Positions 3,384-33,449 of a DNA stretch of 33,449 nucleotides are shown here, piece after piece. The DNA is taken from positions 1 through 33,449 of the forward strand of contig JACRAL010000142.1 in the NCBI GenBank assembly GCA_016213435.1. Direction: 5' to 3'. Below the pieces are notes generated by a model that made no database searches, was not told the DNA's origin, and saw nothing but the letters and a program-made list of their open reading frames with translations. The stretch's first letter is position 1. Each line of letters starts with the position of its first letter. A program made the translations under genes and the position numbers. This stretch comes from Bacteroidota bacterium (lineage in GTDB: Bacteria; Bacteroidota; Bacteroidia; Palsa-948).

Positions 3384-3447
3384 CCCATCCCCCAACCCCT
3401 TCCCTTCGGACAACCGAAGGTTGGGAGCGAAGCTCGTTTAGGATGGG
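3384..3447. repeat. Palindromic element at the M16/tadA convergent junction
   Basis: CCCATCC (3384-3390) pairs with GGATGGG (3441-3447), and an inner CCTTCGGacaaCCGAAGG hairpin lies between. The right part reads, on the minus strand, CCATCCTAAACGAGC and encodes the last two residues and stop of TadA. The same sequence in the same frame ends the C5-epimerase gene at 31052-31060. It may also work as a bidirectional terminator, though no strong T-run follows. Confidence 0.75.
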
Positions 3448-20148: not shown

Positions 20149-23100
20149 TTATTTTATTACAAACTGCTTTTGTGTTTTTTCAAGATCACCATTGGTTACC
20201 TGCAATAAGTAACTTCCGCTGCTGAGGGCTGCGGTGCTTAGCTTTCTGGTAACAACTCCACTTTCGAGTGTTTCGGTATTGCTTATTACTTTTCTTCCTA
20301 TTATATCATATACTTTTACGCTCAGTTCTCCGCCATCTTCGCTGGCAATTATGTATTGTATGCTTCCGTCTGTGGAAGGATTGGGATAGATGGTAATAAT
20401 ATCCAATGTGCCGATATATACGGGGCGTATCTCGGAATAAGTAAACGCTCCGTTATAATCCATAGGTCTGAGGCGGTAATAAGAAATACCGCTATAGGGT
20501 TCATGGTCGTAAAAAATATAATTACGAGTAACGCTGCTGTTACCTGCACCCTTAACAGTTCCTATTTGTTCAAAGTTGATTCCATACTGGCTCCGCTCCA
20601 CAGCAAAGTAATCGCTGTTTATTTCGGTGGCCGTACTCCAGTAACACTTCACTAAACTATTGTTTTTCGCTATGGCATTAAAATACAGTAATTCAATGGG
20701 AAGCGGAACAAGAGAAATCTTGCAAAGTCCTATAGTTTGTACTGGAGTTTGGCGTTGTGTTGTTGTATTATCGCCTATTTGCCCCGTACTATTTCCACCC
20801 CAAGACCAAAGTGTGCTGTCATTTTTTATGGCATAAGAACCATTCCATCCTGTTGATACAACCCTTATTCCTGTAAGAAAGCCCACACCACCGGGGCCAA
20901 GTACCTGAACGGGAGCATTTTTATCTACCAACGTATTATCGCCTAACTGCCCATTGCTATTTAGTCCCCATGCCCAAACCGTGCCGTCATTTCTCAGTGC
21001 AATGGATTGATTATATCCTGCTGATATATCTGTAATGTTACATAAATTGGTGGTGCAGCCGGAGGCGCCAGTTACTACCTGTACAGGGGTTTTAATACAC
21101 CAACACCCGCCTGCAAAAACTGGAGCCAGTCCGTTACCTAATTGACCAAAAAAATTATTTCCCCATGCCCAAACCGTGCCGTCATTTTTTACGGCAAGGA
21201 CATGATCAGCTCCTGCATCAATTGCGAAAATGTTGCATAAATAGGTACCACAACCTGATGCTCCGGCCAATACTTGCACAGGAGTACTACTGGGAGTATT
21301 CCCTGGCGAATTGTTGCCTAATGCACCCTCTGCATTCTTACCCCAAGCCCAAACCGTACCATCATTTTTTAATGCAATTGAAAAATCATTTCCAGATGAC
21401 ACAGCAACAATACCCGTAAGAAATCCTACCCCTCCAGGTCCAACCACTTGTACTGGAGTAGAACGGTTTGTGGTCGTTCCATCGCCTAATTGACCCGATG
21501 GATTATTTCCCCAAGCCCAAACGGTGCTATCACTTTTCAGCGCAAGAGAATGTTGATACCCTGACGATACCTGTATGATCCCCGTAAGAAATCCTACTCC
21601 TCCAGGTCCGAGCACCTGCACGGGAGTTCTTCTCTCTGTAGTGGTACCATCACCCAATTGATATACAGTATTATCACCCCAAGCCCAAACGGTACCGTCA
21701 TTCTTTAAACCAAGTGAAAAATAATATCCCCCTGATCCCACAGATATGATATTGCTAATTGTCCATACCGCTGTTGGCACATGTTTTTCAAGGATGGTGT
21801 TATCGCCTATTTGACCATGATTATTGTATCCAAAAGACATGGCGCTGCCGTTAGTGCATACGGTAACGGCATTAGTGTTTGAAGCTGCAATAGTTTTGGC
21901 AGCTTTCCAACTGGGTAAAAAACCACCTATTCTTCGGCTTCCTGTGTATGATGTAGGGCTTGGAGTATAATTGGCTGTACCAATGGTTAAGGAAGTGCAT
22001 TCTGCATCTACCACATCACCAACAGTTGCTCCGGCAGGAACATCGTATGTTAACCAAAAATAATTTGTGCCTGCAGACAAAGTTTGTGTTCCTGTGATTG
22101 CGAATGAACCATTGGGAGATGCCAATGTGCCAAACAGTGTGGTGGTGGTAAATACGGATGAGGAGCCGGTATAATAAACATTGGCAGTAGTGATGTCGGT
22201 ACCCGGGTTTGTGCTTCCTGTTGTGTTTAAAGCAAAAGAAGTTACAGTTGGAGAACAACCTGCGGCCACAACAATTCGGATACCAATTATTTCAGCATTG
22301 CTTGTTCCCGGATTAATATTCGCAATATTATCTTGCGTAACGCTGCTGCCGGAATAAGCGGATCTTAGCGTTGCAGAAGTTGAGTTTATCGAACATGCAT
22401 TGGTTACTACGCACCTGTACGTATAATTATTCATACTAGTAGTTACTCCGGTAAGGGTTAATATATCGGTAGTGGCTCCGCTGTAAATTCCTCCATTGGT
22501 AATGTTGTTCCACGAAGAGATAAATTCCTGCCATTGATAAGTCAGTCCTCCTCCTGTAGTGGTAACACTAAACGAAGTAATGCCTGTTGAACATAGTTGA
22601 TCAACAGGCTGAACAGTAATGGGCTGATAAAAGGTTTGTGTTCCGCTTGTATCTGTAGACCCGGAATAGGCTGTAATACCTGTAAGGATAACAAAGTCTG
22701 CCGGAACTGTAGCGCTCACTTGAATGGTGTTTCCAGAAGTAGCAGAAGCAGCAATATCCATCGTTATCCAAAAATATTCAGTAGTAACTTTAGCGATGCC
22801 TATATAACTACTATAATTTGGAAATGTTTGAACACCCGGACCTGTAGGCGCAAGATTTGCACCGCATTGTGTAGCAGTAGAAAAATCATTGATGGCAGAA
22901 GCCCAAAGTTTAAAATTCAATATATCAGAGGCTATGTAAGTTCCAGTAGTTGTAAATGTAAATTGCCGTAAATATGCAAAACTTGAAGTCCCACCCGATA
23001 CATATACTGAAAAAGCATGAATAGGAACATTTAATGAACTTACACAAACATTAGCGGCAGGTATAACTATAGTATCTAAAGTTGCCGTATTAGCATATCC

Positions 23101-30019: not shown

Positions 30020-31060
30020 ATGACAAAAAAAATAATTTTTTTTGACTGGTTAATTCTATCTGTTATCCTGACAGTTATTATAGCTGAATACAAAGGAAAC
30101 GAATGGGAAGAAACCATCAGAAAAGGTTATTACAACTCAGTCCTTACAAAAGATTCTATTCCTGCAGAATTTAAAATCTCGATTGATTCATGCGGAATTC
30201 CCTATGTAAATTATTATAAGCGTAATGGAATAACAATCGGTAAGCAATACAATCCCACCATCATAAGCAACTATGCCCTTCAATACTATACCCCTTTTGA
30301 TCAGTCTAAAAATTCAGAAACTGAAAAATATTTTTACAACTGCGCACAGTGGCTCATTAACAATTTAACCTATACGGATGACTATGCGCTGTATATATTT
30401 AACTGGCAAGCTCCTTTTTATCCGCAACTACAAACTCCCTGGACATCCGGTATTGCATCAGGTTCTGCATTAAAAGTATTTGTGTATGCATACAAAAATT
30501 CTCACTCTGAAAAATATCTGGAAGTATCAAAACGTATTTTAAAGGGATTTTATGTTCCGATTGAGCAAGGCGGATTTTCTTGCCAAACAGATAGTGGCTG
30601 GTGGTTCGAAGAGTATGCCGATAAAAATGCAAAGGGACCTCATGTTTTAAACGGACATGTTTCTGCTCTTTTAGGTATCTATGATTTCTACAGAATTACA
30701 AAAAATGATTCTGCCTTTTTTTTATTTCAACAAGGAATAAAGGCGCTTAAACATTCTGTTCACTTATATGACCAAGGAGAAAACAATTGGAGTTATTATG
30801 ATATTTATAAAAAACCTGCTGACAAAAAATACCAGAGAACTATTGTTAAACAAATGAAACAATTATACGCGATAACCGGGGATTCTACTTTTTACAACTA
30901 TTGTATAAAATGGGAAACTCCTCTTAAAGAACCGTATTTGATCAGAATAGTAAAAGAAAAAAATCGCTCTGGGGGATTACTCGTTATAGGATTATGGGCG
31001 GGAATAATCATTGCAGGCATCTGTATCAGGAAATTGTTTTGCAATAAGAGTCCATCCTAA
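30020..31060 (+). CDS. D-glucuronyl C5-epimerase-like protein with membrane anchors
   Basis: 346 residues. The core (about 90-275) matches the glucuronyl C5-epimerase C-terminal fold: PWTSGIASGSALKVFVYAY, the GGFSC...GWWFEEYADKN block and VLNGHVSALLGIYDFYRIT, then YDQGENNWSYYD. The family interconverts D-glucuronate and L-iduronate in polysaccharides in animals, and bacterial members act on surface polymers. Hydrophobic segments at both ends (about 7-24 and 319-338) would place the catalytic domain outside the cytoplasm. The final PS-stop is supplied by a palindromic repeat also found at the tadA end. The substrate in this organism is unknown. Confidence 0.83.
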   Translation: MTKKIIFFDWLILSVILTVIIAEYKGNEWEETIRKGYYNSVLTKDSIPAEFKISIDSCGIPYVNYYKRNGITIGKQYNPTIISNYALQYYTPFDQSKNSETEKYFYNCAQWLINNLTYTDDYALYIFNWQAPFYPQLQTPWTSGIASGSALKVFVYAYKNSHSEKYLEVSKRILKGFYVPIEQGGFSCQTDSGWWFEEYADKNAKGPHVLNGHVSALLGIYDFYRITKNDSAFFLFQQGIKALKHSVHLYDQGENNWSYYDIYKKPADKKYQRTIVKQMKQLYAITGDSTFYNYCIKWETPLKEPYLIRIVKEKNRSGGLLVIGLWAGIIIAGICIRKLFCNKSPS

Positions 31061-31097
31061 ATGAGCTACGCTCGCAAGCCATGCTTGTCCGAAGGGA
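31052..31097 (+). repeat. Stop-codon-carrying palindromic element at the C5-epimerase 3' end
   Basis: CCATCCTAAATGAGCTACGC and on through TTGTCCGAAGGG aligns to the complement of 3399-3446 at tadA. In both, CCA TCC TAA is in frame as Pro-Ser-stop. A trailing GGAATAACTTTCA piece is also found at about 25599. Confidence 0.75.
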
Positions 31098-31128
31098 ATA
31101 ACTTTCAGTTCGCATGCATTATATGGAT

Positions 31129-33142: not shown

Positions 33143-33304
33143 TTATTTTTTCTTAATACTCTTTGAAGCAATAAAGGCAAATAGTCCCTGAACTAATCCT
33201 GAAACAATTCCGATAACAGGTCCCATCATTAACATCATCAGTCGTGGATGTTCAGGCATAGGCATCTTTGCAGTTGATGCCCACATTTCAGGATTAAGCT
33301 GCAT
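33143..33304 (-). CDS. Small membrane protein, possibly truncated by a repeat
   Basis: 53 residues from ATG (MQLNPEMWASTAKMPMPEHP). One strong membrane segment LMMLMMGPVIGIVSGLVQGL extends to FAFIASK, with a basic tail SIKKK. The track start (TTG at 33346) would add residues encoded by the REP-like hairpin. I suspect the native N-terminus was lost when the repeat or the neighbouring element arrived, since the protein looks like the C-terminal part of a longer small membrane protein. No family named. Confidence 0.5.
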   Translation of the reverse strand: MQLNPEMWASTAKMPMPEHPRLMMLMMGPVIGIVSGLVQGLFAFIASKSIKKK

Positions 33305-33319
33305 ATAGGGAATGAATGA

Positions 33320-33340
33320 CCCCGCAGCAGAGCTGCGAGG
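33320..33340. repeat. REP-like hairpin, right copy
   Basis: Identical to the 21-mer at 104-124 (CCCCGCAGCAGAGCTGCGAG plus G). It lies between the small membrane protein and a partial ORF at the window edge that may be a transposase. Confidence 0.8.
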
Positions 33341-33361
33341 TATCAATACAAATACATTATA

Positions 33362-33448
33362 CTAAAATAGACGCAATTGATTCTTATGAAAATTTTTGTA
33401 CGTCCCCTTATCAGTCCCTTGCTCATGAATATATCGTTGAATCACTTC
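33362..33448 (-). CDS. Partial ORF at right edge, possible transposase C-terminus
   Basis: The last 28 codons of an ORF entering from the right: EVIQRYIHEQGTDKGTYKNF, then HKNQLRLF-stop. The pattern of a helix with YIxEQG and a terminal QLxLF is reminiscent of IS200/REP-associated Y1 transposase tails, but this is recollection and too short to prove. The REP-like hairpin 22 nt beyond its stop fits such a pairing. Confidence 0.35.
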   Translation of the reverse strand, partial: EVIQRYIHEQGTDKGTYKNFHKNQLRLF

Positions 33449-33449
33449 C

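Follow-up and report, generated by a model that had tools for sequence, protein, structure and literature searches.

Hairpins at the two ends of the window

The window, a stretch of 33,449 nucleotides, is the whole of one contig (C90) in an assembly of 216 contigs, and its positions 1 and 33449 are the contig ends. As the earlier note had recognized, an identical hairpin is present at both ends: the 21-mer CCCCGCAGCAGAGCTGCGAGG occurs exactly at 104-124 and again at 33320-33340. Given that 100 shuffled sequences yielded no match to the 21-mer even when up to three mismatches were allowed, chance is not expected to produce such a pair. The complementary strand, CCTCGCAGC-TCT-GCTGCGGGG, is predicted to fold as single-stranded DNA with an energy of -8.0 kcal/mol (z score, -4.0); read as CCTCGCAGCTCTGCTGCGGGG, it has a stem of 9 bp, one of them a T.G wobble, and a loop of 3 nt. 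The opposite strand folds less stably because the wobble turns into a C.A mismatch.

At the right edge, the hairpin is located between a small membrane-protein gene and a minus-strand frame (33362-33448) that encodes EVIQRYIHEQGTDKGTYKNFHKNQLRLF up to a stop codon. The features of both ends are listed below, all on the minus strand; LE and RE denote the left end (tnpA 5' side) and right end (tnpA 3' side) of an IS200-type element, and P0001 is the transposase of a complete copy described in the next section.

1-135, minus: LE of one IS200-type copy, with its edge common to 12 copies in this genome and its remainder beyond the contig start
3-74, minus: first 24 codons of tnpA, with a GTG start at 74; cut by the contig end; 88% identity to P0001 residues 2-25
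104-124, minus: LE subterminal hairpin, from the 21-mer match and single-stranded DNA folding
125-128, minus: putative left guide AATT, on the tnpA strand immediately 5' of the hairpin foot; complementary to TTTAA under the IS608 rule
136-140, minus: target and left cleavage site TTTAA, in flanking host DNA; invariant in 12 of 12 left flanks
33143-33311, minus: C-terminal part of a membrane-protein gene split by the insertion; homologues L117 and L118, halves joining in frame
33312-33449, minus: RE of a second IS200-type copy, with its edge common to 13 copies in this genome and its remainder beyond the contig end
33312-33316, minus: putative right cleavage site TTCAT, the extreme end of the element; from the guide rule, and kept in relatives
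33320-33340, minus: RE subterminal hairpin, the same as the LE hairpin, from the 21-mer match and single-stranded DNA folding
33341-33344, minus: putative right guide GATA, on the tnpA strand immediately 5' of the hairpin foot; complementary to TTCAT under the IS608 rule
33362-33448, minus: last 28 codons of tnpA and its stop, with the catalytic tyrosine motif YIHEQ; from the frame and the match to P0001

A multicopy element and its transposase

The 16-nt core of the hairpin has 29 exact occurrences in the genome (3.7 Mb) and three further occurrences with one or two mismatches, nearly all of them 100-130 nt from a contig edge. When aligned, these edges fell into two classes: 12 left ends, with the pattern TTTAA/TCGAATGAATT-hairpin followed by the start of tnpA (the slash marks the cut), and 13 right ends, in which the tnpA stop is followed by GATA-hairpin-TCATTCAT/T. 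Over the 130 nt that follow the cut, eleven of the 12 left ends are identical and the remaining one, on C131, has an extra T in tnpA; the 13 right ends show zero differences across the 133 nt compared. Outside the element boundaries the sequence is unique at every site. This is the signature of a multicopy insertion sequence collapsed by the assembler, and the genome contains at least 12-13 near-identical copies. Positions 1-135 are thus the other terminus of a further copy of the element found at the right edge: two copies, oriented alike, became the limits of the window when the assembler collapsed them, and the contig stops at 1 and 33449 because the repeat broke the assembly. The insertion sequence thereby accounts for the start and end points of the window. 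A second subfamily in the genome, represented by three left and two right ends, combines this hairpin with other flanks.

A complete copy (L075) is present in a sister species (genome G003). It measures 550 bp from cut to cut and consists of a single tnpA gene of about 150 codons between two identical hairpins. The right-edge frame is 75% identical to residues 123-150 of its product, P0001. Scored on this complete copy, the transposase passed the NCBIfam IS200/IS605 model NF033573 (129 bits; cut-off, 55) and matched Pfam Y1_Tnp with 119 bits; it is also homologous to the TnpA proteins of ISDra2 (2xm3/2xqc) and IS608 (2vjv), whose structures have been solved. The HVH motif is found in P0001 and in the copy on C131, and the catalytic motif in the window, YIHEQ, is of the Y---Q type. 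The earlier note's reading of the right-hand frame as a possible Y1 transposase C-terminus is therefore confirmed, and so is the check it set, that the hairpin should also flank the gene on the other side, where both the left ends and the complete sister copy carry it.

The length of about 550 bp and the tnpA-only content are taken from the sister copy, no complete copy from this genome having been read: none of the contigs here includes the middle of tnpA (approximately residues 69-122), as is expected when a repeat collapses, and copies here may have cargo inside that gap. On this evidence we consider it nearly certain that the window ends are the ends of a tnpA-only element of the IS200/IS605 family and that the feature at the right edge is its right end, the whole being about 550 bp if it resembles the sister copy.

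The element is an ordinary, probably recently active member of the IS200 group (TnpA subclass 1.1; Quentin et al. 2018, PMC6006769). It shares with that group a content of tnpA only, a protein of about 150 amino acids, the HVH and Y---Q motifs, a W with T after it, many near-identical copies, subterminal hairpins (here on the same strand at both ends) and insertion that evidently leaves no target duplication. It differs in having its own target (TTTAA) and hairpin sequence, and an N before HVH instead of the usual D. With ISDra2 and IS608 it shares a homologous TnpA, a hairpin at either end that marks the strand, a guide on the 5' side of both hairpins, predicted to pair with the cleavage site, and a preferred base after the cut. 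Their targets, in contrast, are TTAC and TTGAT, and ISDra2 carries tnpB in addition to tnpA. So does IS608 (PMC5934647).

The earlier note had suggested a different identity, in which the gene is a RAYT (TnpA-REP, class 2), that is, a domesticated Y1 transposase, present in single copy, by which a dispersed REP palindrome is spread. A short palindrome does flank a Y1 transposase here, RAYTs share the HUH-Y1 fold and likewise have a palindrome next to their gene, and the genome contains a true RAYT-like gene on C124 (L034) and a second on C19/C84 (L035/L016), both with a Y---NP motif. P0001, however, failed the NCBIfam model for REP-associated tyrosine transposases, REP_Tyr_transpos (28 bits; cut-off, 80), whereas the RAYT-like gene on C124, used as a control, scored 98 bits with that model and 18 bits with the IS200/IS605 model. 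The Y---Q motif is the signature of IS200 transposases and Y---NP that of RAYTs (PMC6006769). RAYTs are further marked by low copy number, a GTAG/GTGG guide and numerous scattered REPs. The window element has none of these traits: its transposase occurs in a dozen near-identical copies, the tetranucleotides 5' of its hairpins are AATT and GATA, and the hairpin belongs to the element at both ends, with one solo palindrome genome-wide and every other clear copy an element end. The RAYT proposal is thus refuted by the model scores, the Y motif, the guide and the genomic distribution; we regard it as very improbable, and a false lead is removed. Least credible of all is that the hairpins are chance structures or plain transcription terminators beside unrelated genes: a GC-rich hairpin soon after a stop codon can terminate transcription, and this one may incidentally terminate that of tnpA, but as a sole explanation this is refuted by the shuffles, by the more than 25 contig edges at which copies keep fixed element boundaries, and by the hairpin's presence upstream of tnpA and its co-variation between the two ends.

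Interrupted genes, target and guide code

The membrane-protein frame at 33143-33311 lacks its first half, as had been suspected. Full-length homologues of about 130 amino acids are present in two sister genomes (L117 and L118), and the missing N-terminal 78 or so codons are found on contig C114, at its left-end edge. When the C114 sequence that ends in TTTAA is placed ahead of the window sequence running down from 33311, a single frame results, ...MLFFNPYMQLNPEMW..., from which it is evident that the gene is split by the insertion-sequence copy at the right edge; this accounts for the truncated look of the gene adjoining lepA. Rejoining a second pair of contigs, C19 and C84, restores the RAYT-like gene L035/L016, which is cut inside its Y motif, YIHFN/PVEAGF. 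It was hit there because YIHFN/P is encoded by a TTTAAT target. No target duplication was found at either rejoined site (C114-C90 and C19-C84). For the left copy no empty site was obtained, homologues of the left flank within the genus beginning hundreds of bases from the insertion point.

TTTAA is the target in all 12 left flanks, usually with T as the next base. The reading frame alone leaves the cut ambiguous by one base, and the ambiguity is resolved by the guide code, which favors TTTAA/T ... TTCAT/T. For IS608, the cleavage-site positions -3 and -4 are the partners of guide bases 1 and 2 (PMC5934647). That guide base 4 pairs with position -1 is our own reading of the published guides and sites (AAAG with TTAC, GAAT with TCAA). 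With the cuts TTTAA/T and TTCAT/T, all three guide pairs form in all 28 left-end entries (copies of this genome, relatives and solos), although these sequences are related and AT-rich and some also fit the rule one base upstream. Among the 11 right-end patterns all three pairs form in all but two, L087 and L088 in relatives, which have two of three. With the cut moved one base further, left ends of the AATT and ATTT types retain no more than one pair. The alternative cut TTTAAT/C ... TTCATT/ restores the frame too and was rejected, as it breaks the guide rule and misfits the right end L008, in which G, not T, follows the cut. That G is explained by the preferred cut, which makes the base target position +1, where a preference is known in ISDra2 and IS608 (PMC5934647). 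Together, the flanks, rejoined frames and guide code indicate that insertion is at TTTAA/T without target duplication.

Guides and sites change together: AATT occurs with TTTAA, AATA with TTTAT, ATTT with TATAA, GATA with TTCAT and GATG with TTCAC. Compensatory changes at all three IS608-derived positions in natural IS200 elements provide a comparative check of the targeting code. The cut and the hairpin are 11 nt apart, with 10 nt between them in a second type; the spacing is 12 nt in L086 and 17 nt in this genome's second subfamily.

If the element behaves like IS608 and ISDra2, the hairpins at its two ends would be bound by a dimer of TnpA on the strand that encodes tnpA, and the guides 5' of the hairpins (AATT on the left, GATA on the right) would pair with the cleavage sites (TTTAA/ and TTCAT/). 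A single strand would then leave as a circle of single-stranded DNA, as in the family generally, and reinsert 3' of a new TTTAA, usually before a T, leaving the target unduplicated. The DNA of these genomes itself shows the family of the transposase, the structure of the ends, the target, the lack of duplication at two sites, the guide complementarity and the interruption of two genes; strand specificity and present activity would be as in the family.

Relatives, solo copies and other repeats

We compared 22 related elements, mostly from Bacteroidota. Their stems include the variants CGCAGC, CGAAGC, CGAGGC, CGATGC and CGGGGC, among others. The LE and RE hairpins of the same element differ by a mean edit distance of 1.8, as against 4.1 for shuffled pairings (none of 10,000 shuffles was as low), a statistic to which kinship of the elements contributes. 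Because paired hairpins stay alike while varying between elements, the palindrome evolves with the element as a putative transposase-binding site. The left and right hairpins of IS608 are also the same (PMC7290912). In seven of the relatives (L082, L083, L089-L092 and L110) the RE hairpin has an extra stem T (for example, CGATGGCTCTGCCTCG) that is absent from the LE hairpin and resembles the unpaired T of IS608. Matches to a 13-mer in other genomes of the class (L037-L040, L044, L045, L047 and L049) are without element flanks and look like chance.

Solo copies with a single hairpin were found at two TTTAA targets: L015 (C84:11418), the one clear solo copy in the 3.7 Mb of this genome, and L041 (C57:15788 of G001). 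Apart from the solo of this genome, 396 genomes of the phylum yielded one similar sequence. Both solos are about 45 nt long, with a single hairpin between the right and the left outer end. Like PATEs (palindrome-associated ends-only IS605 derivatives; PMC7290912), the solo at C84:11418 keeps both outer ends without tnpA, but a single hairpin serves both ends, as is expected from deletion between two direct hairpin repeats. Such deletion best explains the solos and is more economical than the improbable alternative that they are minimal mobile elements on which an IS200 TnpA acts in trans; if true, they would be an initial stage in the change of an IS200 end into a REP-like repeat. G001 yielded no tnpA of this group.

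Finally, we note two other repeats in the window. Positions 3400-3446 and 31052-31098 form an inverted pair (83% complementary) that contains GGACAACCGAAGGTTG and is part of a dispersed palindrome family with 31 matches in the genome at up to one mismatch, as against two for a reversed control; as a candidate REP-like repeat this family is preferable to the 21-mer hairpin. Positions 20765-21838 contain at least six diverged direct repeats, spaced about 153-195 nt apart (most commonly 168 nt), that fit a minus-strand repeat protein, perhaps of the RCC1 type.
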